Position numbers and translations under genes: made by a program. This document shows, piece by piece, positions 373-56,270 of a stretch of DNA of 64,000 nucleotides. Location: NCBI GenBank assembly GCA_949152475.1, contig OX424568.1:15537667-15601666 (forward strand). The letters are read 5' to 3'. Position 1 is the stretch's first letter; every line of letters begins with the position of its first letter. The notes under the pieces were generated by a model, which was not told the DNA's origin, did not search any database, and saw only the letters and a program-made list of their open reading frames with translations. The stretch comes from Terebella lapidaria (lineage: Eukaryota; Annelida; Polychaeta; Terebellida; Terebellidae).

Positions 373-485
373 ATAAAGCTTCGCAAGTAGAAGAGACCCT
401 GCGTATATCCGTTTCATGTACAGGATCTTTGGTTTTTAGATGAATGGTGCTCCCTACGCATTTTCGTAAATGTCGATAGTGCTGA

Positions 486-493
486 TATAAAAG
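486..493 (+). promoter_or_regulatory. Candidate TATA box, first A unit
   Basis: TATAAAAG lies at the left end of module M in every A unit. Array C has TATAAAG at the equivalent place. Keeping a TATA box between two otherwise diverged satellites suggests a Pol II promoter that could transcribe each unit rightwards. No initiator or RNA evidence is available. Confidence 0.4.
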
Positions 494-910
494 AGCCCCT
501 GGCTCGCCAGAGATTGTATTTAAACAAGAGTTTTAGGCTTTGTTATATCACTTGTGCATTACTGAGTTAGAAAACCACAGAAATGTTGCTTTAGATCAGT
601 ATTCAGATGCATACAAGGTATATTGTATTACTACGCGACCGAGTGTTGACATTAGAGACGGTACATGTGCACAGGGGGTAATCGTTTCCACATCTTATTG
701 AGTTGTAAACGGGCTGACGAACAGATTTACCCCAGGTCTCTTTAAGTCTTGATATCTCAGCGAGTTTTCAAGTTATTTTGAACATGAAAAATGCACCTTA
801 AACTAGAAATAACACCGCATTTTTCCACAAAACAGCTTCAAAATTCAATGTTCAATGATTTTTTGAAAATTGGATCCAGAGGAAAAATAAATGTATCCAT
901 AAAACCCGGA

Positions 911-929
911 ATCCGGATCCGATCCGGAT
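911..929. repeat. 19-bp GC-rich palindrome in the A unit
   Basis: ATCCGGATCCGATCCGGAT is an inverted repeat with 9-bp arms around one central C. A relative, ATCCGGGTC-CG-ATCCGGGTC, arranged as a direct repeat, lies 165 bp downstream (1076-1095). Both occur in every unit and stand out as GC-rich islands in AT-rich sequence. Confidence 0.7.
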
Positions 930-1356
930 GAAATTTTGTCAGTTTATGGACCATGATAGTCCGCCACTTTGTAGGAAAAATCAAGCTGAAATATGCACAA
1001 TAGACCGAAATATAATATAAAATATAAGTTAAATGGAGTTTTCAATGTTAAATTCAAATAGCTGTCAAATCCGTAATCCGGGTCCGATCCGGGTCAAAAT
1101 TATAATGTGTGTATAGGATGTCATTCTACACATGTGACTAAAATTTCAAGAGAATTCATTGAAAATTGAACGAGTTATGAATTTTTGAAAAATCGCCCCA
1201 TGTTAAAGATAGGGATTTTTCGAGTTTTCAAGAATTTTTGATGACGTCATCAATAAACCGATTTTCTTCAAAAACTTTCGGTGTCCTTCCTGGGTGAATA
1301 CCTACCTATCAGAAAAATTTGGTGATGCTCGCACTAAAACTGTGGCCTGTAACGTG

Positions 1357-1426
<70 letters not shown>

Positions 1427-2460
1427 AACAAACGGAACTGACCAACATAGTTGTCGAATTTTCAATTCGTCAACTAATAAAGCTTCGCAAGTAGAAGAGA
1501 CCCTGCGTATATCCGTTTCATGTACAGGATCTTTGGTTTTTAGATGAATGGTGCTCCCTACGCATTTTCGTAAATGTCGATAGTGCTGATATAAAAGAGC
1601 CCCTGGCTCGCCAGAGATTGTATTTAAACAAGAGTTTTAGGCTTTGTTATATCACTTGTGCATTACTGAGTTAGAAAACCACAGAAATGTTGCTTTAGAT
1701 CAGTATTCAGATGCATACAAGGTATATTGTATTACTACGCGACCGAGTGTTGACATTAGAGACGGTACATGTGCACAGGGGGTAATCGTTTCCACATCTT
1801 ATTGAGTTGTAAACGGGCTGACGAACAGATTTACCCCAGGTCTCTTTAAGTCTTGATATCTCAGCGAGTTTTCAAGTTATTTTGAACATGAAAAATGCAC
1901 CTTAAACTAGAAATAACACCGCATTTTTCCACAAAACAGCTTCAAAATTCAATGTTCAATGATTTTTTGAAAATTGGATCCAGAGGAAAAATAAATGTAT
2001 CCATAAAACCCGGAATCCGGATCCGATCCGGATGAAATTTTGTCAGTTTATGGACCATGATAGTCCGCCACTTTGTAGGAAAAATCAAGCTGAAATATGC
2101 ACAATAGACCGAAATATAATATAAAATATAAGTTAAATGGAGTTTTCAATGTTAAATTCAAATAGCTGTCAAATCCGTAATCCGGGTCCGATCCGGGTCA
2201 AAATTATAATGTGTGTATAGGATGTCATTCTACACATGTGACTAAAATTTCAAGAGAATTCATTGAAAATTGAACGAGTTATGAATTTTTGAAAAATCGC
2301 CCCATGTTAAAGATAGGGATTTTTCGAGTTTTCAAGAATTTTTGATGACGTCATCAATAAACCGATTTTCTTCAAAAACTTTCGGTGTCCTTCCTGGGTG
2401 AATACCTACCTATCAGAAAAATTTGGTGATGCTCGCACTAAAACTGTGGCCTGTAACGTG

Positions 2461-2518
<58 letters not shown>

Positions 2519-3552
2519 AACAAACGGAACTGACCAACATAGTTGTCGAATTTTCAATTCGTCAACTAATAAAGCTTCGCAAGTAGAAGAGACCCTGCGT
2601 ATATCCGTTTCATGTACAGGATCTTTGGTTTTTAGATGAATGGTGCTCCCTACGCATTTTCGTAAATGTCGATAGTGCTGATATAAAAGAGCCCCTGGCT
2701 CGCCAGAGATTGTATTTAAACAAGAGTTTTAGGCTTTGTTATATCACTTGTGCATTACTGAGTTAGAAAACCACAGAAATGTTGCTTTAGATCAGTATTC
2801 AGATGCATACAAGGTATATTGTATTACTACGCGACCGAGTGTTGACATTAGAGACGGTACATGTGCACAGGGGGTAATCGTTTCCACATCTTATTGAGTT
2901 GTAAACGGGCTGACGAACAGATTTACCCCAGGTCTCTTTAAGTCTTGATATCTCAGCGAGTTTTCAAGTTATTTTGAACATGAAAAATGCACCTTAAACT
3001 AGAAATAACACCGCATTTTTCCACAAAACAGCTTCAAAATTCAATGTTCAATGATTTTTTGAAAATTGGATCCAGAGGAAAAATAAATGTATCCATAAAA
3101 CCCGGAATCCGGATCCGATCCGGATGAAATTTTGTCAGTTTATGGACCATGATAGTCCGCCACTTTGTAGGAAAAATCAAGCTGAAATATGCACAATAGA
3201 CCGAAATATAATATAAAATATAAGTTAAATGGAGTTTTCAATGTTAAATTCAAATAGCTGTCAAATCCGTAATCCGGGTCCGATCCGGGTCAAAATTATA
3301 ATGTGTGTATAGGATGTCATTCTACACATGTGACTAAAATTTCAAGAGAATTCATTGAAAATTGAACGAGTTATGAATTTTTGAAAAATCGCCCCATGTT
3401 AAAGATAGGGATTTTTCGAGTTTTCAAGAATTTTTGATGACGTCATCAATAAACCGATTTTCTTCAAAAACTTTCGGTGTCCTTCCTGGGTGAATACCTA
3501 CCTATCAGAAAAATTTGGTGATGCTCGCACTAAAACTGTGGCCTGTAACGTG

Positions 3553-3602
<50 letters not shown>

Positions 3603-4636
3603 AACAAACGGAACTGACCAACATAGTTGTCGAATTTTCAATTCGTCAACTAATAAAGCTTCGCAAGTAGAAGAGACCCTGCGTATATCCGTTTCATGTA
3701 CAGGATCTTTGGTTTTTAGATGAATGGTGCTCCCTACGCATTTTCGTAAATGTCGATAGTGCTGATATAAAAGAGCCCCTGGCTCGCCAGAGATTGTATT
3801 TAAACAAGAGTTTTAGGCTTTGTTATATCACTTGTGCATTACTGAGTTAGAAAACCACAGAAATGTTGCTTTAGATCAGTATTCAGATGCATACAAGGTA
3901 TATTGTATTACTACGCGACCGAGTGTTGACATTAGAGACGGTACATGTGCACAGGGGGTAATCGTTTCCACATCTTATTGAGTTGTAAACGGGCTGACGA
4001 ACAGATTTACCCCAGGTCTCTTTAAGTCTTGATATCTCAGCGAGTTTTCAAGTTATTTTGAACATGAAAAATGCACCTTAAACTAGAAATAACACCGCAT
4101 TTTTCCACAAAACAGCTTCAAAATTCAATGTTCAATGATTTTTTGAAAATTGGATCCAGAGGAAAAATAAATGTATCCATAAAACCCGGAATCCGGATCC
4201 GATCCGGATGAAATTTTGTCAGTTTATGGACCATGATAGTCCGCCACTTTGTAGGAAAAATCAAGCTGAAATATGCACAATAGACCGAAATATAATATAA
4301 AATATAAGTTAAATGGAGTTTTCAATGTTAAATTCAAATAGCTGTCAAATCCGTAATCCGGGTCCGATCCGGGTCAAAATTATAATGTGTGTATAGGATG
4401 TCATTCTACACATGTGACTAAAATTTCAAGAGAATTCATTGAAAATTGAACGAGTTATGAATTTTTGAAAAATCGCCCCATGTTAAAGATAGGGATTTTT
4501 CGAGTTTTCAAGAATTTTTGATGACGTCATCAATAAACCGATTTTCTTCAAAAACTTTCGGTGTCCTTCCTGGGTGAATACCTACCTATCAGAAAAATTT
4601 GGTGATGCTCGCACTAAAACTGTGGCCTGTAACGTG

Positions 4637-4678
<42 letters not shown>

Positions 4679-5712
4679 AACAAACGGAACTGACCAACAT
4701 AGTTGTCGAATTTTCAATTCGTCAACTAATAAAGCTTCGCAAGTAGAAGAGACCCTGCGTATATCCGTTTCATGTACAGGATCTTTGGTTTTTAGATGAA
4801 TGGTGCTCCCTACGCATTTTCGTAAATGTCGATAGTGCTGATATAAAAGAGCCCCTGGCTCGCCAGAGATTGTATTTAAACAAGAGTTTTAGGCTTTGTT
4901 ATATCACTTGTGCATTACTGAGTTAGAAAACCACAGAAATGTTGCTTTAGATCAGTATTCAGATGCATACAAGGTATATTGTATTACTACGCGACCGAGT
5001 GTTGACATTAGAGACGGTACATGTGCACAGGGGGTAATCGTTTCCACATCTTATTGAGTTGTAAACGGGCTGACGAACAGATTTACCCCAGGTCTCTTTA
5101 AGTCTTGATATCTCAGCGAGTTTTCAAGTTATTTTGAACATGAAAAATGCACCTTAAACTAGAAATAACACCGCATTTTTCCACAAAACAGCTTCAAAAT
5201 TCAATGTTCAATGATTTTTTGAAAATTGGATCCAGAGGAAAAATAAATGTATCCATAAAACCCGGAATCCGGATCCGATCCGGATGAAATTTTGTCAGTT
5301 TATGGACCATGATAGTCCGCCACTTTGTAGGAAAAATCAAGCTGAAATATGCACAATAGACCGAAATATAATATAAAATATAAGTTAAATGGAGTTTTCA
5401 ATGTTAAATTCAAATAGCTGTCAAATCCGTAATCCGGGTCCGATCCGGGTCAAAATTATAATGTGTGTATAGGATGTCATTCTACACATGTGACTAAAAT
5501 TTCAAGAGAATTCATTGAAAATTGAACGAGTTATGAATTTTTGAAAAATCGCCCCATGTTAAAGATAGGGATTTTTCGAGTTTTCAAGAATTTTTGATGA
5601 CGTCATCAATAAACCGATTTTCTTCAAAAACTTTCGGTGTCCTTCCTGGGTGAATACCTACCTATCAGAAAAATTTGGTGATGCTCGCACTAAAACTGTG
5701 GCCTGTAACGTG

Positions 5713-5758
<46 letters not shown>

Positions 5759-6792
5759 AACAAACGGAACTGACCAACATAGTTGTCGAATTTTCAATTC
5801 GTCAACTAATAAAGCTTCGCAAGTAGAAGAGACCCTGCGTATATCCGTTTCATGTACAGGATCTTTGGTTTTTAGATGAATGGTGCTCCCTACGCATTTT
5901 CGTAAATGTCGATAGTGCTGATATAAAAGAGCCCCTGGCTCGCCAGAGATTGTATTTAAACAAGAGTTTTAGGCTTTGTTATATCACTTGTGCATTACTG
6001 AGTTAGAAAACCACAGAAATGTTGCTTTAGATCAGTATTCAGATGCATACAAGGTATATTGTATTACTACGCGACCGAGTGTTGACATTAGAGACGGTAC
6101 ATGTGCACAGGGGGTAATCGTTTCCACATCTTATTGAGTTGTAAACGGGCTGACGAACAGATTTACCCCAGGTCTCTTTAAGTCTTGATATCTCAGCGAG
6201 TTTTCAAGTTATTTTGAACATGAAAAATGCACCTTAAACTAGAAATAACACCGCATTTTTCCACAAAACAGCTTCAAAATTCAATGTTCAATGATTTTTT
6301 GAAAATTGGATCCAGAGGAAAAATAAATGTATCCATAAAACCCGGAATCCGGATCCGATCCGGATGAAATTTTGTCAGTTTATGGACCATGATAGTCCGC
6401 CACTTTGTAGGAAAAATCAAGCTGAAATATGCACAATAGACCGAAATATAATATAAAATATAAGTTAAATGGAGTTTTCAATGTTAAATTCAAATAGCTG
6501 TCAAATCCGTAATCCGGGTCCGATCCGGGTCAAAATTATAATGTGTGTATAGGATGTCATTCTACACATGTGACTAAAATTTCAAGAGAATTCATTGAAA
6601 ATTGAACGAGTTATGAATTTTTGAAAAATCGCCCCATGTTAAAGATAGGGATTTTTCGAGTTTTCAAGAATTTTTGATGACGTCATCAATAAACCGATTT
6701 TCTTCAAAAACTTTCGGTGTCCTTCCTGGGTGAATACCTACCTATCAGAAAAATTTGGTGATGCTCGCACTAAAACTGTGGCCTGTAACGTG

Positions 6793-6830
<38 letters not shown>

Positions 6831-7867
6831 AACAAACGGAACTGACCAACATAGTTGTCGAATTTTCAATTCGTCAACTAATAAAGCTTCGCAAGTAGAA
6901 GAGACCCTGCGTATATCCGTTTCATGTACAGGATCTTTGGTTTTTAGATGAATGGTGCTCCCTACGCATTTTCGTAAATGTCGATAGTGCTGATATAAAA
7001 GAGCCCCTGGCTCACCAGAGATTGTATTTAAACAAGAGTTTTAGGCTTTGTTATATCACTTGTGCATTACTGAGTTAGAAAACCACAGAAATGTTGCTTT
7101 AGATCAGTATTCAGATGCATACAAGGTATATTGTATTACTACGCGACCGAGTGTTGACATTAGAGACGGTACATGTGCACAGGGGGTAATCGTTTCCACA
7201 TCTTATTGAGTTGTAAACGGGCTGACGAACAGATTTACCCCAGGTCTCTTTAAGTCTTGATATCTCAGCGAGTTTTCAAGTTATTTTGAACATGAAAAAT
7301 GCACCTTAAACTAGAAATAACACCGCATTTTTCCACAAAACAGCTTCAAAATTCAATGTTCAATGATTTTTTGAAAATTGGATCCAGAGGAAAAATAAAT
7401 GTATCCATAAAACCCGGAATCCGGATCCGATCCGGATGAAATTTTGTCAGTTTATGGACCATGATAGTCCGCCACTTTGTAGGAAAAATCAAGCTGAAAT
7501 ATGCACAATAGACCGAAATATAATATAAAATATAAGTTAAATGGAGTTTTCAATGTTAAATTCAAATAGCTGTCAAATCCGTAATCCGGGTCCGATCCGG
7601 GTCAAAATTATAATGTGTGTATAGGATGTCATTCTACACATGTGACTAAAATTTCAAGAGAATTCATTGAAAATTGAACGAGTTATGAATTTTTGAAAAA
7701 TCGCCCCATGTTAAAGATAGGGATTTTTCGAGTTTTCAAGAATTTTTGATGACGTCATCAATAAACCGATTTTCTTCAAAAACTTTCGGTGTCCTTCCTG
7801 GGTGAATACCTACCTATCAGAAAAATTTGGTGATGCTCGCACTAAAACTGTGGCCTGTAACGTGCAA

Positions 7868-7898
<31 letters not shown>

Positions 7899-8932
7899 AA
7901 CAAACGGAACTGACCAACATAGTTGTCGAATTTTCAATTCGTCAACTAATAAAGCTTCGCAAGTAGAAGAGACCCTGCGTATATCCGTTTCATGTACAGG
8001 ATCTTTGGTTTTTAGATGAATGGTGCTCCCTACGCATTTTCGTAAATGTCGATAGTGCTGATATAAAAGAGCCCCTGGCTCGCCAGAGATTGTATTTAAA
8101 CAAGAGTTTTAGGCTTTGTTATATCACTTGTGCATTACTGAGTTAGAAAACCACAGAAATGTTGCTTTAGATCAGTATTCAGATGCATACAAGGTATATT
8201 GTATTACTACGCGACCGAGTGTTGACATTAGAGACGGTACATGTGCACAGGGGGTAATCGTTTCCACATCTTATTGAGTTGTAAACGGGCTGACGAACAG
8301 ATTTACCCCAGGTCTCTTTAAGTCTTGATATCTCAGCGAGTTTTCAAGTTATTTTGAACATGAAAAATGCACCTTAAACTAGAAATAACACCGCATTTTT
8401 CCACAAAACAGCTTCAAAATTCAATGTTCAATGATTTTTTGAAAATTGGATCCAGAGGAAAAATAAATGTATCCATAAAACCCGGAATCCGGATCCGATC
8501 CGGATGAAATTTTGTCAGTTTATGGACCATGATAGTCCGCCACTTTGTAGGAAAAATCAAGCTGAAATATGCACAATAGACCGAAATATAATATAAAATA
8601 TAAGTTAAATGGAGTTTTCAATGTTAAATTCAAATAGCTGTCAAATCCGTAATCCGGGTCCGATCCGGGTCAAAATTATAATGTGTGTATAGGATGTCAT
8701 TCTACACATGTGACTAAAATTTCAAGAGAATTCATTGAAAATTGAACGAGTTATGAATTTTTGAAAAATCGCCCCATGTTAAAGATAGGGATTTTTCGAG
8801 TTTTCAAGAATTTTTGATGACGTCATCAATAAACCGATTTTCTTCAAAAACTTTCGGTGTCCTTCCTGGGTGAATACCTACCTATCAGAAAAATTTGGTG
8901 ATGCTCGCACTAAAACTGTGGCCTGTAACGTG

Positions 8933-8978
<46 letters not shown>

Positions 8979-10012
8979 AACAAACGGAACTGACCAACAT
9001 AGTTGTCGAATTTTCAATTCGTCAACTAATAAAGCTTCGCAAGTAGAAGAGACCCTGCGTATATCCGTTTCATGTACAGGATCTTTGGTTTTTAGATGAA
9101 TGGTGCTCCCTACGCATTTTCGTAAATGTCGATAGTGCTGATATAAAAGAGCCCCTGGCTCGCCAGAGATTGTATTTAAACAAGAGTTTTAGGCTTTGTT
9201 ATATCACTTGTGCATTACTGAGTTAGAAAACCACAGAAATGTTGCTTTAGATCAGTATTCAGATGCATACAAGGTATATTGTATTACTACGCGACCGAGT
9301 GTTGACATTAGAGACGGTACATGTGCACAGGGGGTAATCGTTTCCACATCTTATTGAGTTGTAAACGGGCTGACGAACAGATTTACCCCAGGTCTCTTTA
9401 AGTCTTGATATCTCAGCGAGTTTTCAAGTTATTTTGAACATGAAAAATGCACCTTAAACTAGAAATAACACCGCATTTTTCCACAAAACAGCTTCAAAAT
9501 TCAATGTTCAATGATTTTTTGAAAATTGGATCCAGAGGAAAAATAAATGTATCCATAAAACCCGGAATCCGGATCCGATCCGGATGAAATTTTGTCAGTT
9601 TATGGACCATGATAGTCCGCCACTTTGTAGGAAAAATCAAGCTGAAATATGCACAATAGACCGAAATATAATATAAAATATAAGTTAAATGGAGTTTTCA
9701 ATGTTAAATTCAAATAGCTGTCAAATCCGTAATCCGGGTCCGATCCGGGTCAAAATTATAATGTGTGTATAGGATGTCATTCTACACATGTGACTAAAAT
9801 TTCAAGAGAATTCATTGAAAATTGAACGAGTTATGAATTTTTGAAAAATCGCCCCATGTTAAAGATAGGGATTTTTCGAGTTTTCAAGAATTTTTGATGA
9901 CGTCATCAATAAACCGATTTTCTTCAAAAACTTTCGGTGTCCTTCCTGGGTGAATACCTACCTATCAGAAAAATTTGGTGATGCTCGCACTAAAACTGTG
10001 GCCTGTAACGTG

Positions 10013-10054
<42 letters not shown>

Positions 10055-11091
10055 AACAAACGGAACTGACCAACATAGTTGTCGAATTTTCAATTCGTCA
10101 ACTAATAAAGCTTCGCAAGTAGAAGAGACCCTGCGTATATCCGTTTCATGTACAGGATCTTTGGTTTTTAGATGAATGGTGCTCCCTACGCATTTTCGTA
10201 AATGTCGATAGTGCTGATATAAAAGAGCCCCTGGCTCACCAGAGATTGTATTTAAACAAGAGTTTTAGGCTTTGTTATATCACTTGTGCATTACTGAGTT
10301 AGAAAACCACAGAAATGTTGCTTTAGATCAGTATTCAGATGCATACAAGGTATATTGTATTACTACGCGACCGAGTGTTGACATTAGAGACGGTACATGT
10401 GCACAGGGGGTAATCGTTTCCACATCTTATTGAGTTGTAAACGGGCTGACGAACAGATTTACCCCAGGTCTCTTTAAGTCTTGATATCTCAGCGAGTTTT
10501 CAAGTTATTTTGAACATGAAAAATGCACCTTAAACTAGAAATAACACCGCATTTTTCCACAAAACAGCTTCAAAATTCAATGTTCAATGATTTTTTGAAA
10601 ATTGGATCCAGAGGAAAAATAAATGTATCCATAAAACCCGGAATCCGGATCCGATCCGGATGAAATTTTGTCAGTTTATGGACCATGATAGTCCGCCACT
10701 TTGTAGGAAAAATCAAGCTGAAATATGCACAATAGACCGAAATATAATATAAAATATAAGTTAAATGGAGTTTTCAATGTTAAATTCAAATAGCTGTCAA
10801 ATCCGTAATCCGGGTCCGATCCGGGTCAAAATTATAATGTGTGTATAGGATGTCATTCTACACATGTGACTAAAATTTCAAGAGAATTCATTGAAAATTG
10901 AACGAGTTATGAATTTTTGAAAAATCGCCCCATGTTAAAGATAGGGATTTTTCGAGTTTTCAAGAATTTTTGATGACGTCATCAATAAACCGATTTTCTT
11001 CAAAAACTTTCGGTGTCCTTCCTGGGTGAATACCTACCTATCAGAAAAATTTGGTGATGCTCGCACTAAAACTGTGGCCTGTAACGTGCAA

Positions 11092-11122
<31 letters not shown>

Positions 11123-12156
11123 AACAAACGGAACTGACCAACATAGTTGTCGAATTTTCAATTCGTCAACTAATAAAGCTTCGCAAGTAGAAGAGACCCT
11201 GCGTATATCCGTTTCATGTACAGGATCTTTGGTTTTTAGATGAATGGTGCTCCCTACGCATTTTCGTAAATGTCGATAGTGCTGATATAAAAGAGCCCCT
11301 GGCTCGCCAGAGATTGTATTTAAACAAGAGTTTTAGGCTTTGTTATATCACTTGTGCATTACTGAGTTAGAAAACCACAGAAATGTTGCTTTAGATCAGT
11401 ATTCAGATGCATACAAGGTATATTGTATTACTACGCGACCGAGTGTTGACATTAGAGACGGTACATGTGCACAGGGGGTAATCGTTTCCACATCTTATTG
11501 AGTTGTAAACGGGCTGACGAACAGATTTACCCCAGGTCTCTTTAAGTCTTGATATCTCAGCGAGTTTTCAAGTTATTTTGAACATGAAAAATGCACCTTA
11601 AACTAGAAATAACACCGCATTTTTCCACAAAACAGCTTCAAAATTCAATGTTCAATGATTTTTTGAAAATTGGATCCAGAGGAAAAATAAATGTATCCAT
11701 AAAACCCGGAATCCGGATCCGATCCGGATGAAATTTTGTCAGTTTATGGACCATGATAGTCCGCCACTTTGTAGGAAAAATCAAGCTGAAATATGCACAA
11801 TAGACCGAAATATAATATAAAATATAAGTTAAATGGAGTTTTCAATGTTAAATTCAAATAGCTGTCAAATCCGTAATCCGGGTCCGATCCGGGTCAAAAT
11901 TATAATGTGTGTATAGGATGTCATTCTACACATGTGACTAAAATTTCAAGAGAATTCATTGAAAATTGAACGAGTTATGAATTTTTGAAAAATCGCCCCA
12001 TGTTAAAGATAGGGATTTTTCGAGTTTTCAAGAATTTTTGATGACGTCATCAATAAACCGATTTTCTTCAAAAACTTTCGGTGTCCTTCCTGGGTGAATA
12101 CCTACCTATCAGAAAAATTTGGTGATGCTCGCACTAAAACTGTGGCCTGTAACGTG

Positions 12157-44836: not shown

Positions 44837-44986
44837 GTCAAAGGTCAAGGTCAAGGTCACAAAAGATAGAACTCGAGTATATCTACAATATGCACTTGAT
44901 TTGAAGTCTCTACGACGATTAGAACCGGAGTAAAGGGCACTTATGTGTTTTCGACATTTTACATGACCTTGACCTTGACCTTTGAC
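44837..44986. repeat. Half-site array with a perfect 23-bp inverted repeat
   Basis: A run of AGGTCA half-sites (44837-44859) is the exact reverse complement of the TGACCT run at 44964-44986, with 104 bases between. The left arm reads GTCAAAGGTC then AAGGTC repeats. Equivalent but less perfect pairs occur in each B2 core, for example near 41958/42090, 43403/43550, 49515/49658, 51175/51312 and in each C unit. The runs contain the extended half-site TCAAGGTCA (ERR/FTZ-F1 type) and spaced-by-one direct repeats (DR1 type). The pair could fold as a long hairpin if transcribed. Confidence 0.85.
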
Positions 44987-45138
44987 CTAGATTCACCAAA
45001 ATAGTGCGGTGTCTGCCCAGTAATCTACAGATATAGAGTATGTAATATGAACCGATTCGACCTAGAACTGTGGACGCTAGAGTGCAAACAAACACACAAA
45101 CAAACAAACAAACCCATCCATCCACAAACAGACCAACA

Positions 45139-45169
45139 TACTTGCCGGAATTGAAAATTCCGGCAAGTA
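45139..45169 (+). repeat. Terminal hairpin of E5, perfect 14-bp stem
   Basis: Arms TACTTGCCGGAATT and AATTCCGGCAAGTA, loop GAA, no mismatch. Confidence 0.92.
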
Positions 45170-45175
45170 ACAAAT

Positions 45176-46624
45176 GAACCGACATAGTCGACTAACTTGC
45201 CGGAATAGCTGGCAATGACCTTGAACTTTTACCAAAGACTTTGAATTTTTTGCAAAGTTGATGCATCTGGTTATTTTAAATATGAGTAATGGCATTTTTC
45301 TACATTTTGTATAGTTGATGGAAAACATTGAAAAAAGTATTATATTTCTTTCCTAGCATAAGCAGTTTGTGGTCATGAAAGACTGATAGGATTCGGATCT
45401 TTTGTGACGTCATCAATAGAGCTATTTTTCTCAAAATCATTCTGTCAAGAGCCATTATCCTACAGAATATCTACATCAAATTTGAGAAGAATCAAGCAAC
45501 AAATGTGGACGCTATGAGTATGAAAAGACAAACAAATGAAATTTTCTCCAATTTTCCGTCATAAAAAGGTCAATTAGGCCATTACCACTGCAATTATTGA
45601 ACTGATATTTGTCAAATAGCTTCAGTAGGTATCCCCAATACTTACCAGAGCACCGGATCAACAATAATCATAAATGGTTTATGCATCTCATGTAAACAAT
45701 CAATTGAAGTATGATAAAATCACGTTTCACGTCATTATGACGTCATATGACGTCAGATTCCAAAAATAAGAACATATATCGAAACTACTCCCGAAGACCT
45801 TTCAAACGAGTTACTACTCGATATTTTCGCGAAAGGTCAAGGTCAAGGTCATTTTTTGGGTCAACTTCGACCTCAGGCGCTTGCAAAGGCTATCGGCCAT
45901 ACGCCTTAGGTGTAAATACAAAAGTTGATAGGCTAAGTGAGTACAATACTGTGGATTTACTTTCGTGTCTCTATCTTGCTTACTTCCTGAGATATAGTGA
46001 CCTACATGGTTTTCACTTGCGGGTCACTATTGACCTTGACTTCCGACCTTTGACCTTGAAATTTCGCGGAACAAAAGAACTCGTCCTTGGCTATAAACAG
46101 GTGTATCATTAGATTTTTACGCACATTATTGACGCTTTTATCAGCATGGACAGCTTGAAACATGCAATTTCGCTTATAATGGGACCGATTTCGTTGCCAT
46201 AGAAACGTCAATTACGTCATAACGGATTGACCGATCGCGCTAAAAATTGACATTGACCATAAGGGACCGGTCCGACATCGTTTCCAAGCATCAGATCGAA
46301 AATCGGAGGAGGTGACCTCCAAGGTCAAATATTCGACCTCAGGCGAACTTCTCAAGGTCAAGGTCAAATGTCAAGGTCAAGGTCACAAAAGATAGAACTC
46401 GAGTATATCTACCATATGCACTTGATTTGAAGTCTCTACGACAATTAGAAATGGAGTTATGGCCACTTATGTGTTTTCGACGTTTTGCTTGACCTTGACC
46501 TTGACCTTGGACCTAGAATCACCAAAAGTGTGCAGTCGCGAGCCATGAACCTACATGATATGCACACTAAGTTTGGAAGAAGTCAAGCGAGAATTGTGGA
46601 CACTAGGGGCGAACAACCAAACAA
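45176..46624 (+). mobile_element. B2-type element, recent copy 3
   Basis: Starts with the same GAACCGACATAGTCGACTAA as copies 1 and 2 and is nearly identical to them to about 46405. It then changes to a different B2 right end (CTAGGGGCGAACAACCAAACAAATG). Either a hybrid made by recombination between B2 copies, or gene conversion that stopped there. Confidence 0.78.
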
Positions 46625-47724
46625 ATGAAATTTTACCGATTTGTTGCCACCAAAACGTCAAATACGTCAAAACGGATTTATCGATTGAGATAAAAATAGG
46701 TAGAGACTATCATAGAAAAAATCCACATCGTTTGCATCTGTTAGATCTGCAGTAAATGTTAAAACTTTGCATATCTGACACTCAAAAGGCCTAAATGTCA
46801 GACTGAAATCACATTTGACGTCATTATGACGTCAATTGACGTCCGATTCCGAAAATGACAACAGATTTGGAAAGTACTCTCAAAGACCTTTCAAACGAGC
46901 TACTACTCGATATTTTTGCAAAAGGTCAAGGTCAAGGTCATTTTTGAGGTCAACTTCGACCTCAGGCGCTTGCAAAGGCTATTGGTCATACGCCTTAGGT
47001 ATCAATGCAAAAGTTGTTAGGCTAAGTGAGTGTAATACTGTAGATTTACTTTAGTGTCTCTATCTTGTTTACTTCTTGAGATATAGTGACCTACATGGTT
47101 TTCACTTGCGGGTCAATATTGACCTTGACTTTCGACCTTTGACCTTGAAATTTCGTGGAATAAAAGAACTCGTCCTTTGCTATAAACAGGTGTATCATTA
47201 GATTTTTATGCACATTATTGACGCTTCTATCAGCATGGACAGTTTGAAACATGCAATTTCGCTTATAATGGGACCGATTTCGTTGCCATAGAAACGTCAA
47301 TTACGTCACAACGGATGGACAAATCGCGCTAAAAATTGATATTGACCATGAGGGACCGGTCCCACATCGTTTCCAAGCATCAGATTGAAAATCGGAGGAG
47401 GTGACCTCCAAGGTCAAATATTCGACCTAGGGCGAACTTCTCAAGGTCAAGGTCAAAGGTCAAGGTCAAGTCACAAAAGATAGAACTCGAGTATATCTAC
47501 GATATGCACTTGAATTGAAGTTTCTACGACGATTAGAACCGGAATTATGGCCACTTACGTGTTTTCGACGTTTTGTGTGACCTTGACCTTGACCTTTGAC
47601 CTATATACACCAAAATAGGACGTTTTCTGCCCAGTATCCTAGAGAATATGTGCACCAAATTTGGAAGAAATCGAGTGAGAAATGTGGACGCTAGGCTGTA
47701 AACAAACAAACAAACAAACACACA
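46625..47724 (+). mobile_element. B2-type fragment, 5'-truncated
   Basis: Begins inside the B2 body at GAAATTTTACCGATTTGTTG, matching E5 from about 44015, with no opening terminus. It continues colinear with E5 to the CAAA tract at 47700-47727. The frame corresponding to the 121-codon one in copies 1-3 is cut to 72 codons here, as expected for non-coding sequence. Confidence 0.75.
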
Positions 47725-49804
47725 AACGAGAGCCCATAGGGCACACACTTGCCGGAACCAAAATATATGTCATATGCCAATGACATGACATATGGATTTG
47801 AACAAATTGACTAAAATTTCTTCCCTACTTACTACGTTTACTTACTTACTTTACTTCATTTTACTTTAGTTTACTTCACAAACTACTCTTACTATCAATG
47901 TTACCTCATTGAACGTCACAGCACCAAAAATAAGACATGAATAGACTCAGGAGACCAAGAACTTTCTAACGGTATACTACTCGATATGATGAGCTGAACT
48001 TCGTACTTGACCTCGATATTGAGCTCATCACAAAGTCTCAAAAACAATGTCAAATGTCATATTCAAAGTCAAATAAGAAAGGCTTCTCAATATGCTGCAA
48101 TATGGTCATAGTTTGAACTCTCTACGGCGATTAGTTTCGAAGTTACTGCCATTTATGTGATTTTCACGTGATTATGACGTCATTTGTGATCATTTCTATG
48201 CTGCAAACTTACTGTGAATGGATTTTTCTTTAATATGCATGTTAAAATCGTGTTTATATATGTTATATTATCACCAGACAAGATTATAATATCTTCAGAT
48301 AATAAGTTTCCTTTGAAATTTTATCGATTTGTTGCCACAAAAACGTCAATTACGTCAAAATAGATATATCAATTGAGCTAAAAATTGACAGAGCATCACA
48401 GGCCGAATCCACATCGTCTGCAGGTGTTAGATCTGCAGTAAATGTTATAAGTTTACACATCTGACACTTAAAAGACCTGAATGTCAGTCTGGAATCACGT
48501 TTGACGTCATTATGACGTCTATAGACGTCCGATTCCAAAAATGACAACAAATTTGAAAAGTACTTTCGAAGACCTTTCAAATGAGCTACTACTCGATATA
48601 TTCACAAAAGGTCAAGGTCAAGGTCATTTTTGAGGTCAACTTTGACCTCAGGCGTCATAGTCAATGGTCACATTGAAGGTCACCTAAGAAAGGCCTTTTG
48701 ATATGCTACAATATGATCCTAGTCTGAACTCTCTACGACGATTAGTTCCGAAGTTATGGTCAATTATGTGATTTTGACCTTTTCTTTGACCTTGACCTTT
48801 ACCTTTGACCTTGGGTCATGAAGATTGTGCATTGCCTGAGCATGGAAATATATATTATACTTGGATATTTTAGTCACAATCGAACAAGAATTGTGGACAC
48901 TATGGCCTTTTGAAATTTCAAAAAATTGACGTTGATGACGTCATTGTGACGTCAATAAACGTCAAATCTGAATATTAATGAGATAGTGTGTGTCAGGGTA
49001 TAAAGACCTTCCATTTGATATACTAATTGATAGGTTTCAGTTAGTTTGGAAATTTGACCTTGAGGTTTTCCTCATGTGACCTCATTTTCCCGACCAGGTT
49101 CAAGGTCAATCATGAAATTGACATATACGTCTGATTGCCATACCTCTTCTGAATGATATGGTTCAAATTTCATGAACCTACGACGATTCCAACAGATGTT
49201 ATTACCGGAAACGCATTTTTCTGGGATTTCGATGACCTTGACCTTGACCTTTGACCTTTGTACTTCAAGTCGTAGAGGTCAATGATGTCAATATGCATAT
49301 CAAGTTTCAATGGATTCCATACACTATTAACGATATTATGGCCTTTTGAAATTTCGGAAATTTGACGTTTATGACGTCATTGTGACGTCAGTTTACGTCG
49401 CAGCGCCAAAATAAGATATCACTGGAATCAGGGGCCCAAGACCTTTCCAACGATATACTACTCGATATGGTGCGCTGAACTTCGTACTTGACCTTGACTT
49501 CGACCTCAGGCGAACTTCTCAAGGTCAAGGTTAAAGTTCAAGGTCAAGGTCACGGAAGATAGAACTCGAGTATATCTACAATATGCACTTAATTTGAAGT
49601 CTCTACGACGATTAGAACCGGAGTTATGGCCACTTATGTGTTTTCGACGTTTTGCATGACCTTGACCTTGACCTTTGACCTAGATACACCAAAATAGGAC
49701 GTTTCCTGCGCGGTATTCTAGAGAATATGTGCACTGAATTTGGAGGAAATCGGGTGAGAAATGTGGACGCTAGGCTGTAAACAAACAAACACACAAACAA
49801 ACAA
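47725..49804 (+). mobile_element. B2-type element E8
   Basis: Short hairpin GCCC-ATA-GGGC (47732-47742) then ACTTGCCGGAA. After an unusual start (inverted repeat and TTAC-rich stretch) come several degenerate B2 cores with TGACCT runs near 48785, 49223 and 49659, about 436 bp apart. It ends in a CAAA/CACA tract at about 49780-49806 without its own long hairpin, as if E9 had inserted in that tract. Confidence 0.65.
47766..47895. repeat. Short inverted repeat and TTAC-rich low-complexity tract
   Basis: ATATGTCAT (47766-47774) and ATGACATAT (47786-47794) pair perfectly over 9 bp. From about 47825 to 47895 follows imperfect TTAC/TTTAC/TTACTT sequence that no other element here has. I do not recognise it. 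Confidence 0.75.
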
Positions 49805-51519
49805 ACGAGAGCCCCTAGGGCACCCACTTGCCGGAACGCATACTCATGATTTTTGACAGGTTTCAATGAGTTTGTAAACTTGACCTTGAAAACTTATTCA
49901 TGTGATTCCATGGATTTAACATATAAGCATGAGTGCCATGCCTGTTCTGAATATGATTCAAATTTCATGAAACTACGACGATTCGAGCAGAAGTTATCAC
50001 CAGTAATGTGTTTTTCTGGGATTTTGATGACCTTGACCTTTGACCATGTGGTTCATGTCGTAGAGGCCAACGCTGTCAATATGTATATCAATATCCAAAA
50101 GATTCCCTCCAGTATTGATGTTAGAACCTTTTGAAATTTCAGATATTTGACATTTCTGTCATCATTGTGACGTCACTGAACGTCATAGCGCCAAAATTAA
50201 GACATCACGATAATCAGGAGACCGAGACCTTTCCAACGGTATCCTATTCAGTATGGTGCACTGAACTTTGTACTTGACCTTGATATTGACTTGTGGCGAA
50301 CTTCTGAAGGTCAAGGTCAAAGGTCACATTCAAGGTCACCTAAGAAAGGCCTATTGATATGCCACAATATGGTCTTAGTTTGAACTCTCTGCGACCATTA
50401 GTTCCGAAGTTATGCTTTTATGTGATTTTGACCTTTTCCTTGAACTTGACCTCGACCTTTGACCTTTGGTCACGAAGATTGTGCATTGTCTGTGTATGGC
50501 GATACAGACTATACTAGAATAATTCCGTCGGAATCGAACAAGAATTGTGGACACTATGGCCTTTTGAAATTTCGAAAAATTGACGTTCATGACGTCACTG
50601 TGAGGTCAATGAACGTCACATCTCAAAACTAATGAGATACTATGTATCAGGGAATCAAGACCTTCCATTTGATATACTACTTGATAGGTTTCAATTAGTT
50701 TGAAAATTTGACCTTGAAGTTTTGCTAATGTGACCTCATTTTTCGACTAAGTTCAAGGTCAATCATCGAATTGACATATACGTCTGATTGGGATACCTCT
50801 TCTGAATGATATGGTTCAAATTTCATGAGCCTACGACGATTCAAGCAGATGTTATTACTGAAAAGGTGTTTTTCTAGGATTTCGATGACCTTGACCTTGA
50901 CCTTTGACCTTTGTACTTCAATTCGTAGAGGTCAATGCCGTCAATATGCATACCAAGTTTCAAGAGATTCCAAACAGTATTGACGATGTTATGGCCTTTT
51001 GAAATTTCGGAAATTTGACGTTTATGACGTCATTGTGACGTCAGTTTACGTCACAGCGCCAAAAATAAGGTATCATTGGAATCATGGGCTAACGATCTTT
51101 CCAACGATATACTACACGATATGATGCGCTGACCTTTGTACTTGACCTTGATATTGAGCATAGGCGAACTTCTCAAGGTCAAGGTCAAATGTCAAGGTCA
51201 AGGTCACGGAAGCTAGAACTCGAGTATATCTACAATATGAACTTGGTTTGAAGTCTCTAGGACGATTAGAATCGGAGTTATGGCCACTGATGTGTTTTGG
51301 ACATTTTGTGTGACCTTGACCTTGACCTTTGACCTAGACACACCAAAATAGGACGTTTTTGGGCCATCATCCTAGAGAATGTGCACAATAATTTTGGAAG
51401 TAATTCATGTAGAATTGTGGACGCTAGAGGGCGAACAGACAAACAGACAAACAGACAAACACATATACAAACGAACTGACCAACATACTTGCCGAAATCG
51501 TAGATTCCGGCAAGTAACA
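49805..51519 (+). mobile_element. B2-type hairpin-ended element E9 (looks end-complete)
   Basis: Short hairpin GCCC-CTA-GGGC (49811-49821), ACTTGCCGGAA from 49826, cores with TGACCT runs near 50027, 50435, 50886 and 51313, a CAGACAAA-type tract (about 51434-51470) and a hairpin at 51486-51516 (arms TACTTGCCGAAATC and GATTCCGGCAAGTA, loop GTA, one mismatch). The stretch 50752-51420 is the part most like the body of the C unit. The first 40 bp after the short hairpin repeat those of E2 (CATACTCATG), although the bodies belong to different families. Confidence 0.68.
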
Positions 51520-51522
51520 AAT

Positions 51523-51945
51523 GAACCGACATAGTCGACTAACTTGCCGGAAGTGCTGCCAGTGATCTTGACCTTCTACTGGGTAACCTAGATTTTTTAC
51601 AATCTTCATGTACCTGGCCATTCTGAATGTGAGAGTGAATATTCATCATTTTTCAGTGATAAAAACGTTAGTTACGTCAAAACAAATAGAAGAATCAAAC
51701 TGAGAATTGAAAATTTTCCTCATTAGATATGTATAAATCTCCCTATAATACCAAATCCAGAAAAAACAAATCCATAATACCAAATGTCCAAATGGGATTT
51801 TGATGACCTTGACCTTGGCCTTTGACCTATGTAGTTCAATTCGTAGAGGTCAATGTTATCAATGGGTATATCAAGTTTCAAGATATTCCATACAGTATTG
51901 ACGCTGTTATGGCCTTTTGGAATTTCGGAAATTTAACCTGTATGA
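51523..51945 (+). mobile_element. B2-type element start, body truncated
   Basis: Opens GAACCGACATAGTCGACTAA and ACTTGCCGGAA like copies 1-3, then diverged B2 sequence with a TGACCT run near 51803. Similarity stops at about 51945 in the middle of a core, where sequence of another kind begins. Its matching end may be one of the three hairpins at 54142-54305. Confidence 0.6.
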
Positions 51946-52152
51946 TGCAGTCAGAGTTTGATGATGCCAAAAACAAACGTAAAATACAACAGTTTGCAAT
52001 GAAAATTGTAGCTCGATCAAATAGTTCATCCGAAGACACACTGAAATATTCCACTCATATTCATGAAACACTTTTTTGTTATCTCCATAAAGGCACGAAG
52101 TAGTAGATTCTTTGTGCTTTCTGCTTCAGGCTTGATTTTGATTTAATATCGC

Positions 52153-52195
52153 GAAACTCATGTGGAATAATAATACCCAGCCATACACCGAGGTT
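52153..52195 (-). repeat. Inverted fragment of the B1 core
   Basis: Read on the minus strand, this matches the B1 core passage CTCGGTGTATGGCTGGGTAT and the ATTCCACAT after it (compare 39389-39420). It is the only piece of B1 in the opposite orientation that I noticed. Confidence 0.8.
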
Positions 52196-52381
52196 GAAGG
52201 CTAGAAACGGTTCAATTTTCGTGAAAATCGGTCAAGTGAAGAGGTCACAAAAAATCTCAAAAAATTCCTCACGCTGCCGCCACAGCAGCCACACCAATGC
52301 GCAGCCATGAGACATACCTGCATTTATTCTGAGGGCTGTCTCTTGTACGCTATATGCTTCACACTCAACAACTTTCAAAGT

Positions 52382-52455
52382 GACGGTTTGGCTCAGTCAG
52401 TAAAGGCGTTAGGTGTTGGTGCGCGGGGTCAGGAGTTCGATTCCTATTGCCACTT
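52382..52455 (+). mobile_element. tRNA-like SINE head (Pol III A and B boxes)
   Basis: TGGCTCAGTCAG at 52389-52400 fits the Pol III A box with one difference, and AGTTCGATTCC at 52434-52444 fits the B box. Their 45-base spacing is right for a tRNA. A run of eleven or so T follows at once (from 52454), a typical Pol III stop. The D and T stems and the acceptor stem pair poorly, so this is a tRNA-derived SINE head or a decayed tRNA pseudogene, not a working tRNA gene. No anticodon can be assigned with confidence. Confidence 0.62.
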
Positions 52456-52545
52456 TTTTTTTTTAAATTCCAACTAAATTACTTTTTCTGAGTGTTTTTT
52501 TTTGTATTAATTCTGATATGTTTTCCACAGTCACCCTTTTATCTA

Positions 52546-53820
52546 TTCTATTGTTCTGATAATTACAGTCTAATACCTTTAAATTGAAGTGCACTGTGGA
52601 TGTTTGAGAGTTTGCTGAAAAGTTGAAATATTGGTATCACAGGCCTTACGTTTATGACGTCATAGCGGAAAATCTATCATGGCGGAAAAGTATCAGACAG
52701 TACCCTTCTAAAGCAGAATTCAACGAGCTTTCCAATGGTGCAATTCGCTTTTCTGTACGACAAATACTTTCCGATATATAGCCCCATTTCGAAAAATGAC
52801 GTTTCACGTCGTGACGTCATTGACGTTTCACCTAGCGTGTTGAGACTCGGTATATGGCTGGGAAGTATCATTCCACATGAGTTCTGATAATTACAGCCTA
52901 ATATCTTTAAATTTGAGTGCACTGTGGATGTCTGAAAGTTTGCTGAAAGGTCGAAATATCGGTATGACAGGCCATACGTTTATGACGTCATAACGGAAAA
53001 TCTATCAGGGCGGAAACGTATCGGACAGTACCCTCCTAAACGAGAATTCAACGAGCTTTCGAGTGGTACAATCCGCTTCTCTGTGCGATAAATACTTTCA
53101 GATATATAGCCCCATTTTTAAAATTGACGTTTTACGTCATGACGTCATTGACGTTGAACGTAGCGCGTTGAAACTTGGTATATGCCTGTATATTGATATT
53201 TCACATAGGTTCTCATAATTACAGTTCCAAACCTTCAAATTTGAGTGCACTGTGGATGTTTGAAATTTTGCTGAAAAGTCGAAAAATTTGTATGACAGGC
53301 CTTACGTTTATGACGTCATAGCGGAAAATCTATCATGGCGGAAAAGTATCGGATAGTACCCTTCTGAACCAGAATTCAACGAATTTTCCAATGGTGCAAT
53401 TTGCTTCTCCGTACGACAGATACTTTTTGATATATAGCCCCATTTCGAAAATTGACGTTTTACGTCATGACGTCATTGACGTTACACGTAGCGTGTTAAA
53501 ACTTGGTATATGGCTGGGTATCATTATTCCACATAGGTTCTGATAATTACAGCCTAATAACTTTAAAATTGAGTGCACTGTGGATGTTTGAAAGTTTGCT
53601 GAAAAGTCGAAAAATTGGTATGACAGGCCTTACGTTTATGACGTCATAGCGGAAAATCTATCATGGCGGAAAAGTATCGGACAGTACCCTTCTGAACCAG
53701 AATTCAACGAGCTTTCCAATGGTGCAATTCGCTTCTCTGTACGACAAATACTATCCGATATATAGCCCCATTTTGAAAAATGACGTTTCACGTCGTGACG
53801 TCATTGACGTTCAAACAATC
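52546..53820 (+). repeat. B1 328-bp satellite cores, second block
   Basis: Markers at 52648, 52977, 53304 and 53632 give spacings of 329, 327 and 328 bp, with a partial core at the left edge joined to the SINE island. Divergence between copies is like that in the first B1 block. Confidence 0.92.
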
Positions 53821-54141
53821 CGAGTAAAACTTCGCAGTTTGATGGAGGATACTATTATATATCCCTGTGCTGAATTTCAGAAGTATCGGTTTAAATGTGG
53901 CTGCTGTGTGAATTTTTTAAAATTCGCCAATGATGAGAGATAGGGATTTTTTTAGTTTTCAAGAATTTTTGGTGACGTCATCAGTGAACCGATTTTTTCC
54001 AAAAACGTGCGGTCCCGTCCCAGAGCGGATACCTATCTATCAAAAAAAATTCGGAATGCTAGCTCGAAAACTGTGGACGCTAGAGCGCGCACAAACAAAC
54101 GGACAAACAGACAACGCCATAAACAAACAAACCGACCAACA
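53821..54141 (+). repeat. B1 tail with CAAA/GACA-like tract
   Basis: Same tail as at 38884-39212, with GGTGACGTCATCAGTG and AAAACTGTGGACGCTAGAG, ending in CAAACAAACGGACAAACAGAC-like sequence from 54090. Confidence 0.85.
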
Positions 54142-54305
54142 TACTTGCCGAAATCTTTAGATTCCGGCAAGTAACAAACACACAAACACATCCACAAACC
54201 GACCAACATACTTGCCGAAATCGTAGATTCCGGCAAGTAACAAACACACAAACAAATCCACGAACGAACCAACATACTTGCCGAAATCGTAGATTCCGGC
54301 AAGTA
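54142..54305 (+). repeat. Three terminal hairpins in a row
   Basis: Hairpins at 54142-54173, 54209-54239 and 54275-54305, each TACTTGCCGAAATC with GATTCCGGCAAGTA and a 3- or 4-base loop, 66-67 bp apart. Between them stand short CAAACACACAAAC-type tracts and ACCAACATA, that is, the end part of an element without its body. Either a tandem duplication of the tail or the stacked ends of nested insertions. Confidence 0.9.
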
Positions 54306-54311
54306 ACAAAC

Positions 54312-55645
54312 ACACAAACCAGCGACCATAGGTCGTAAGCTTGACGAAATGTTTACTGAACTGATCCTGACCTTGACCTCTGAGATGTGACTCTGAAATT
54401 TTGCAGGTTATATTAGACAACATGCTATTTAGGCATAGACATTCAGTCCAATACCTTCAAATTTGAGTTCACGGTGTAGGTTTGAATGTTTGCTGGAATG
54501 TCGAAAAATTTATATGACCGGCCTTACGTTTATGACGTCATAGCGAAAAATCTATCATGGCGGAAAAGTCACGGACAGGTCCCTCTCAAACCAGAATTCA
54601 ACAAGCTCTCCAGTGGTTCAATCCGCTTCTCTGTACGACAAATACTTTTCAATATATAGCTCCATTCTGAAAATTGACGTTATACGTCATGACGTCATTG
54701 ACGTTGCCCGTAGCGTGTTGAAGCTCGGAATATGACTGGGTATTAATACGCCACATATAGTCTCATAATCATAGTCCAATACCTTCAAATTTGAGTGCAC
54801 GGTGTAGGTTTGAATGTTTGCTGAAATATCAAAAAATTTATATGACTGGCCTTACGTTTATGACGTCATAGCGAAAAATTTATTATAGCAGAAAAGTATC
54901 TAACAAGACCGTCCTAAACCAGAATTCAACGAGCTTTCCAATGGTGTGATGCGCTCCTCTGTACGACGAATACTTTTCAATATATAGCTCCATTTTGAAA
55001 ATTGACGTTTTACGTCATGACGTCATTGACGTTGCACGTGGCATGTTGAAACTCGGCATATGACTGGGTAATAATATGCCACATATGTTCTCATAATCAC
55101 AGTCCAATACCTTCAAATTTGAGTGCACAGTGTAGGTTTGAATGTTCGCTGAAAAGTCGAAAAATTGATATGACCGGCCTTACGTTTATGACGCCATAGC
55201 GAAAAATCTATCATGGCGGAAAAGTATCGGACAGCACCATCCTAAACCAGAATTCAACGAGCTTTCCAGTGGTGCAATCCGCTTCTCTGTACGACAAATA
55301 CTTTTTGAGATATTGCCCCATTTCAAAAATTGACGTTTTACGTCGTGACGTCATTGACGTTCGATGGATCCAAACAAAACTTCGCGGTTTGATGGAAGAT
55401 ATCATCATCCATCGATGTGTCAAATTTCAGAGGTATCGAACTAAATATGACTCCTGTGTGAATTTTTGAAAATTCGCTAATGATGAGAGATAGGGATTTT
55501 TCGAGTTTTTAGGAATTTTTGGTGACGTCATCAATTAACCGATTTTTTTCGAAAAACGTGCAGTGCCGTAACAGGGCTAATAGCTGTACATCAAAGAAGT
55601 TTGGGGATGCTAGCGCAAAAATTGTGGACGCTAGAGTGCGAAAAG
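54312..55645 (+). mobile_element. B1-type element E12
   Basis: Opens with short hairpin CGACC-ATA-GGTCG (54323-54335) then AGCTTGACGAAAT. A small B2-like stretch is followed by B1 cores marked at 54526, 54854 and 55182 (328 bp each) and a B1 tail to about 55645. There is no hairpin at its right end. The opening CTTGACGAAAT is the reverse complement of the right arm of the C-unit hairpin (ATTTCGTCAAG, first at 57025-57036), so the matching end may lie inside array C. Confidence 0.6.
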
Positions 55646-55778
55646 ACAAAAGAGTGAAGCATGGAATTTTGCTTATGATGGGAGCGATTCTGTTGTCATA
55701 AATATCTGGTGCATGCACAGGACCTTTGATCGTGAAAGAAATTACTGCTAAAAACCGGGAATGGGGCCGGTTGCTATG
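55646..55778 (+). repeat. Junction between the B chain and array C
   Basis: A short B2 fragment (about 55650-55705, matching 43203-43255) and then some 70 bp I do not recognise, with GCATGC and several CCGG, up to the first C unit. Homology to C begins at CCGGTTCG, 55779. Confidence 0.6.
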
Positions 55779-55801
55779 CCGGTTCGTCATGCCCAAAATT
55801 T

Positions 55802-56270
55802 CTGATATAAAGTGGCCTGTTGCTTGACCCAGACTATTTAGACATGAGTTTTAGACTTTATCATACCAGTTGGACACCTCTGAGTCAAAAAACAAAAGAA
55901 ATGTTGTTTGAGATGTGCACTTGGATACATATATGATATACTGTACTACTTCGCAACCGAGTGTGTATATTTAGAAGGGGACATGTCCACAGGGGGTAAT
56001 CGTTTCTACAGCTTATTAGCATCTGAACGGATTGAGAATCAAATTCACCCCACTGCTCTTTCTACTTTGATATCTCGGCGAGTTTTCAAGTTATTCCAAA
56101 TGTGAAAAGTGGACCCTAAACTAGAAATAACACTGCAACTGACTGCAAGAAAATTCTTTAAAATTAATGTTCAGTAAATGTGTGAAAATTGGAGCCATGA
56201 AAACATAAAAAATATCTGTAAAATCCCAAAAACTCATGGGATTCCGATTAAGTTTTGTCAGATTATAGAC
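55802..56270 (+). repeat. Module M in array C
   Basis: Counterpart of 482-951 in array A with the same landmarks in the same order and almost the same length (469 against 470 bp). It follows the hairpin of the previous unit by about 124 bp in the repeated copies. Confidence 0.85.
55806..55812 (+). promoter_or_regulatory. Candidate TATA box, first C unit
   Basis: TATAAAG at the left end of module M, in the same place as TATAAAAG in array A and repeated in all C units. Confidence 0.38.

Follow-up and report, generated by a model that had tools for sequence, protein, structure and literature searches.

Two macrosatellites, A and C, lie in the window analysed here, a stretch of 64,000 nucleotides of Terebella lapidaria DNA (C15:15537667-15601666 in an assembly of 761.6 Mb and 438 contigs), with an unamplified chain of nested elements between them. 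Both satellites are probably amplified pieces of non-autonomous Helentrons (HINEs), which would have been multiplied by rolling-circle copying and then homogenised. They share one 470-bp module, M, which is part of a cassette of about 570 bp in one lineage of non-autonomous Helentron elements of the HINE/DINE-1/Pearl kind. M core and unit junction sites occur across the genome, and A and C are therefore two members of a genome-wide family.

Module M and the bodies behind it

When an A unit was compared with the window by BLASTN, its copy of M matched the C-type head copy at 72.8% identity over 474 columns (E 3e-68), and the same match was found in five further full C units. The match begins at CTGATATAAA and is colinear through to the end of the module. 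M contains a TATAAA stretch. In a global alignment of the two copies 345 of 465 positions matched, with 9 gaps, while the A-type copy against shuffled C-type copies gave a mean of 62% and a maximum of 69%. The A body against the first 495 bp of the C body gave 273 matches of 436 with 118 gaps, which is the level of shuffled sequence. The bodies behind M in A and C are unrelated, and what likeness there is between them is confined to the last 80-100 bp or so, the microsatellite and the hairpin. The sequence-only reading, an earlier interpretation made from the letters of the window without database searches, had described two macrosatellites with one module, colinear along its full length, and different bodies, and this is borne out. 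It had also proposed that both were built from exchanged parts. Indeed, when 40 distinct M copies are placed in a tree, the clades follow the body, the A body forming a single clade, and the E1425-type body was gained at least twice, on separate starred branches.

Immediately upstream of M there is a stretch of about 100 bp, here called pre-M, that is common to A and C, is more variable and starts ATATCYGG. The common slot after the hairpin that had been reported for M is present in the window, at 108 bp in A (hairpin end 373, M start 482) and 122 bp in C (hairpin end 57038, M start 57161), but it is not general, since the gaps in arrays seen across the genome are about 8, 25-30, 108-122 and 350-366 bp. 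The C copy first cited for this slot, at 55802, does carry M, but it is the head of the array and has no hairpin directly before it.

M had further been described as absent from the unamplified chain. With both M types and pre-M as queries (E <= 0.01), only one 35-bp scrap was found in the chain of the window and its continuation (37,064-55,690), whereas a chain on C6, at L009 (L numbers denote loci read elsewhere in the genome), carries two truncated M relatives (8004-8171 and 8867-9221). M is missing from the chain in the window because that chain belongs to other element lineages.

Searched alone against the genome, the 26-bp core of M was found at 3,874 sites (1648 + 2226; up to 2 mismatches), which is a lower bound for old copies, with none for the reversed control. 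At up to 1 mismatch there are 844 unit junctions of the A type and 804 of the C type. Exact A-type junctions total 97, with 92 in the C15 array described here, 4 on C14 and 1 on C6. There are 282 pre-M heads. The M core had no match in the viral_contigs and genome_contigs collections, nor did the hairpin motif in viral_contigs.

Element ends and the insertion rule

The full C element, which spans 54,320 (palindrome end) to 57,038 (hairpin), reads on the plus strand as a palindrome with a 12-bp subterminal repeat, 328-bp repeats, pre-M, M, the body, (CAAA)n, the hairpin and TAA. The hairpin contains the 12-bp repeat in inverted form. The inserts of about 1.3-2.7 kb that interrupt the arrays have the same ends, the left being a short palindrome of the type GGCCnnnGGCC followed by the 12-bp repeat. 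The right end is a hairpin, and its outer arm corresponds to this repeat inverted. In all ten elements compared, of which four are one family, the two ends differ by 0-1 mismatch, against a mean of 2.0 across different elements; because the first letters belonged to the search motif, the weight of this agreement rests on the variable letters (CCGG, GGCG, GACG and CCAG types). The variant CCAG at one end pairs with CTGG at the other. For the A type AGTTGACGAATT is paired with AATTCGTCAACT, where the left end is taken from a neighbouring element and the pairing is by type. Central tandem repeats of 257 or 327 bp are present in four inserts, and the longest stop-to-stop frame in these four is 87 aa.

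The inserts make no target duplication. In all eight that were compared (L011, L012, L014, two in L015, L046, L049 and L050, all of them outside nested positions and locus edges), the left and right flanks joined together are the exact string of an empty unit of the same array. The insertion place is the (CAAA)n, or (TTTG)n, just before the hairpin of the resident element, although the exact position of the cut is ambiguous within the repeat because CAAA recurs, and in the cases seen the insert has the direction of the resident.

These elements therefore carry the features of HINEs, which are subterminal repeats of 11-15 bp, palindrome and hairpin ends, a microsatellite and central repeats, absence of target duplication and absence of coding. 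A canonical Helitron (Helitron1, with 5'-TC, 3'-CTRR and an A/T target) was rejected, the plus-strand ends being GAG, CAG or AAA at one side and CAAGTAA at the other, and neither reading gives TC..CTRR. A polarity in which the hairpin is the 3' end, making a mirror image of the plant arrays discussed below, was dropped after comparison with published descriptions of HINEs.

Bare end modules, made up of a microsatellite and a hairpin (51-66 bp), were seen two or three in a row with no body between them, at 54127-54319 in the window, at L049 and in the reverse complement of L009 (4550-4760). We take these as stacked leftovers of nested insertions.

One-way islands and the origin of the arrays

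All 49 terminal hairpins in the window are on the plus strand. The window and 23 loci, 24 sources in all, have 139 hairpins between them; in no source do these occur on both strands, and two loci have no hairpins. Neighbouring pre-M heads up to 100 kb apart share a strand in 41 cases and lie on opposite strands in 1 (among 100 listed of the 282), generic palindrome ends in 66 and 2 (among 100 listed), and matches to Helitron_like_N in 38 and 1. On the rule described above, a newcomer enters the (CAAA)n that adjoins the hairpin of a resident, without target duplication and, in the cases seen, pointing the same way as the resident; since each insertion adds a landing pad of the same facing, chains and islands grow one way.

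The same islands hold long Rep-helicase (Rep-Hel) frames. On C1-C6, 34 of 78 Helitron_like_N matches are within 100 kb of a listed pre-M head, where 2.9 would be expected from random placement (500 runs, maximum 8, with C2 assumed to be 60 Mb), and 33 of these 34 are on the strand of the nearest pre-M. Among 150 scored matches, 104 are in open frames of 2000-2866 aa (234 candidates). Rep-Hel frames lie, for example, at C4:20718767, C14:4393521 and C6:36420726. One open reading frame, scanned in a single copy as two pieces on either side of the middle, has Helitron_like_N and PIF1 over the cut-off, OTU and DUF6570, as well as an endonuclease match, Exo_endo_phos (E 0.00035), that at 20.8 bits is under the cut-off of 24.5 bits. 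The OTU protease and DUF6570 domains are in its N-terminal piece, at L062 (1607-4000). The 3' flank of this Rep-Hel copy, at C5:1.73 Mb, holds positions 281-465 of the A-type M and 1-140 of the A body. M as a standard part of the tail of autonomous Helentrons was nevertheless rejected, because the other four 3' flanks sampled (3.3 kb each, two of them near-copies) are without M, and the piece at C5 is thus a fragment in one Rep-Hel copy. A stretch between inverted repeats AAAAAAAAGTATTATGGTTCTGG (from 2942 in L063 to about 393 in L061), with an M tail on one side and a piece of A body on the other, lies downstream of a Rep-Hel frame. A fixed distance from Rep-Hel frame to palindrome end, sought by eye in the lists for C1, was not established.

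In M arrays every unit has a hairpin end and the palindrome end is much rarer, with 115 C-family palindrome ends (up to 3 mismatches) against the 804 C-type hairpin junctions. On C1-C7, 41 of 63 listed palindrome ends have a listed pre-M head (up to 1 mismatch only) downstream on their own strand at 0.88-3.3 kb, and for 40 of these the distance is 0.88-2.7 kb and falls into steps; none has one on the opposite strand and 22 have none at all. Five pre-M were found upstream, at up to 4 kb. C-element ends also occur within C arrays, at L047, L048 and L049 (left junctions only). A position of M between two 5' ends of a chimera was discarded as not general, since a 5'-end remnant precedes pre-M in only 5 of 12 distinct contexts.

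The joints seen between units consist of the TAA terminus followed by T, the T having been required by the search in the case of C1:20.77 Mb. They start at differing internal points beyond M in C, in A, in L052/L058, in L051/L055, in L047 and at C1:20.77 Mb. The truncation points fall at no fewer than five different places, from about 8 to about 370 bp beyond M, which indicates that the M lineage became tandem several times. Unit length differs between clusters by place. Two clusters 15 Mb apart on C4 (C4:28045162 and C4:43047767) both open with an M-core spacing of 2182 bp and are possibly a segmental copy. Palindrome ends of another family, known here by coordinates only, recur at a spacing of 1269-1276 bp at C1:47346835-47349405 and C1:47399545-47403377, a layout opposite to that of the M arrays.

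With the polarity of HINEs, here the minus strand, the hairpin would be the 5' end and the arrays would consist of many 5' ends with one 3' end. Rolling-circle copying, presumably by a transposase, of elements without central repeats and 3' terminator would give the first tandem copies, and later homogenisation would give near-identical units. Of the 34 A units, 29 are of equal length (1045 bp with (ACAG)n masked), with a mean of 0.27 differences, and two sets of C units show no differences. The number of ACAG copies varies from 6 to 15 among these otherwise near-identical A units, so the microsatellite mutates faster than the array homogenises.

Some points weigh against HINE-derived arrays made by rolling-circle copying. 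The near-identity of the A units also fits ordinary unequal crossing-over. The Rep-Hel frames are tied to the element ends by co-location and shared strand only, and they lie on the strand of M, opposite to the polarity proposed for HINEs, which makes that polarity uncertain, though inverted frames have been reported for some Helentrons in the available part of one account (PMC5148889). The strand counts are not independent events, because neighbours within an island may be copies in large duplications or share descent. Although all 66 tandem unit pairs inspected carry M (core, up to 6 mismatches), this proportion is biased because the loci were chosen through M, and tandem growth as such may extend beyond M, given the palindrome-end runs of about 1270 bp on C1.

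A broader proposal would join these observations into a self-seeding, one-way integration system. Next to its end hairpin each element would have a (GTTT)n of its own as landing pad, whose strand would set the direction of the newcomer; the resulting unidirectional islands, over hundreds of kilobases, would keep intact Rep-Hel genes together with their parasites; and the M-bearing lineage, with M as a cryptic rolling-circle stop, would repeatedly lose its terminator just beyond M and so produce satellites. As a whole this proposal is tentative.

That the units derive from HINEs but the arrays were made by unequal crossing-over, slippage or break-induced copying, with no part for a transposase, is also a possibility, though a rather doubtful one. 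The small differences among A units, the identical C units, the drift in ACAG counts and the local unit lengths, as local homogenisation would give, are all consistent with it. The joints, however, tie the TAA terminus to one or another of several internal points, a result that random duplication would not give repeatedly. Crossing-over probably acts after the first tandem copies exist, and it is to this extent compatible with rolling-circle copying as their source.

It had been suggested that M marks the amplified units and may help amplification. M is mostly found in repeats. A second site lies within 2.5 kb of 83 among the 100 exact M-core sites listed, and the same holds for 69 of the 100 exact M-start sites listed, although these lists favour young, homogenised arrays because they contain exact matches from the first contigs only. 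Single elements carry it too. Among ten heads chosen by eye at a distance from known arrays, 5 have a second M within 2.2 kb, 4 are single within about 3 kb and 1 is blocked by an insert. Its presence in single elements and as part of a larger mobile element speaks against the sequence-only reading on this point. A search independent of M, for a CCGG-type hairpin end followed by T, gave 366 sites, with 27 of 100 listed clustered at five places, and M content was checked in two of the five. In the array at C1:20.77 Mb exact M starts were found at 2 of 5 units, and in that at C1:45.80-45.83 Mb (15 units) pre-M and an M start were seen at the head only. An active, cis-acting role for M, for example as a cryptic terminator or replication start, is possible on the strength of these arrays, the clustering of M and the repeated truncation just beyond it, but it is unlikely, since M occurs in single elements, truncated relatives lie in an unamplified chain, and common ancestry of one array-prone lineage would yield the same pattern. 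We read M as the cassette of one lineage that is prone to tandem growth.

A centromeric function is very improbable; M clusters at first appeared at one or two places on several contigs, but C-type arrays lie at 38.54-38.64, 47.16-47.21, 57.30-57.36 and 93.70-93.72 Mb on C1, four sites where a classical centromeric satellite would have one main locus per chromosome, and M clusters lie at 1.66-1.88 and 13.83-13.85 Mb on C5. Near-identical 1 kb units are hard to assemble, but collapsed or mis-joined repeats can scarcely account for insertions at different places, ACAG counts that vary and a head layout that is consistent across many contigs.

The features of the window are listed in Table 1. There are 26 stop-to-stop frames of 81-124 aa in mid-window. 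Rfam gave two chance-level matches in the window, both under the gathering scores, and ARAGORN made no call. A tRNA-like stretch at 52380-52460 on the plus strand (GGCTCAGTCAGTAAAGG .. GGAGTTCGATTCC), called by neither, presumably resembles the head of a tRNA-derived SINE.

Table 1. Features of the window, with positions counted from its first nucleotide
Feature	Position	Strand	Remark
A macrosatellite, 34 units of 1068-1104 bp in the window	1..37063	+	92 exact unit junctions at C15:15446457-15573659
A-type pre-M, unit start right after the hairpin	372..481	+	
Module M, A type, first full copy; recurs along the A units	482..951	+	
A body with (ACAG)n microsatellite	952..1442	+	
A terminal hairpin CAACATAGTTGTCGAATTTTCAATTCGTCAACTAA; would be the HINE 5' end if read on the minus strand	1443..1477	+	
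Unamplified chain of nested M-less elements	37064..54319	+	
Central tandem repeats of 328 bp in a chain element	37206..38885	+	further sets at 39292-40361 and 52553-53811
Two copies of E1425 plus one relative, all M-less; three ends are palindromes and one is a hairpin	40772..45170	+	
C element palindrome end CAGCGACCATAGGTCG and subterminal repeat GCTTGACGAAAT	54320..54350	+	C15:15591990
C element 328-bp central repeats	54444..55361	+	
Pre-M of the C array head	55705..55801	+	
Module M, C type, head copy	55802..56270	+	
C body with (CAAA)n microsatellite, the landing site of other elements in the C array	56271..57001	+	
C terminal hairpin CAACATACTTGACAAAATCTTTGATTTCGTCAAGTAA	57002..57038	+	
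C macrosatellite, 1358/1359-bp units	57039..64000	+	runs on to about C15:15630.5k (limit of the DNA read), with element insertions

Comparison with known systems

The origin of satellites from transposons is an old question that is usually argued from decayed remains. Here the stages are found side by side, from the single element through nested chains and dimers whose joints differ to long arrays of near-identical units, and many long open Rep-Hel frames are within the same islands. The one-way landing rule would be a simple reason for polarity in repeat islands, and it predicts insertion at every microsatellite that adjoins an end hairpin. Nested and tandem Helitrons are already known, as are satellites derived from Helitron-type elements. 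The combination of landing in the element's own microsatellite, a fixed direction and one-way islands was not met in the open-access literature, which is no proof that it is unpublished. We take the elements to resemble bivalve repeats, going by published description alone.

The comparisons that follow refer to the available part of each source. DINE-1/HINE elements are described with subterminal repeats, an inverted repeat, a microsatellite, central repeats, a palindrome and a T-rich target without duplication (PMC4067079). The elements reported here agree with this in their subterminal inverted repeats of 12 bp, which adjoin an inverted repeat and stop 2-3 nt short of one terminus, in the microsatellite, the central repeats and the palindrome at the far end, and in the absence of target duplication at a target that is T-rich on one strand. 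They differ in that the (GTTT)n adjoining the end hairpin of the elements themselves serves as target, with the insertions seen all one-way, and in that the subterminal repeat is about 20 nt from the palindrome terminus, compared with 38-60 bp in mite HINEs (PMC4067079).

The Cg_HINE/Pearl elements of the oyster likewise have modular flanks and satellite-like central repeats, with unrelated repeats behind related flanks and no target duplication (PMC7492417). They are, however, found in both orientations, evenly dispersed and mostly with short arrays of central repeats, whereas here whole end-bearing units of about 1.1-2.1 kb form long arrays in one-way islands (PMC7492417). Satellites linked to Helitrons have also been reported in oyster satellitomes, where the available text has no landing rule for the element's own microsatellite (PMC11136912).

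Insertion near or into other Helitrons, and multiple termini by nesting, are shared with the Helitrons of maize, for which no orientation rule or own-microsatellite target is mentioned in the available text (PMC12477314, PMC3288121). The Helitron2 element FoHeli of Fusarium has asymmetric inverted repeats with hairpins, self-insertion and several 5' ends with one 3' end, as here; it was described from one nested case with short 5' duplications, while the nesting seen here extends over hundreds of kilobases (PMC5148889).

In plants, centromeric Helitron arrays have been explained by rolling-circle copying from circles that lack a terminator (Xiong et al. 2016, via PMC12628747 and PMC5876387). 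Those arrays share with A and C the tandem truncated elements and, if the HINE polarity is right, the many 5' ends with one 3' end (PMC12628747). The arrays described here differ in having Helentron-type ends, nearly identical units in which every joint has the TAA terminus, and several sites per chromosome instead of the centromeres (PMC12628747).

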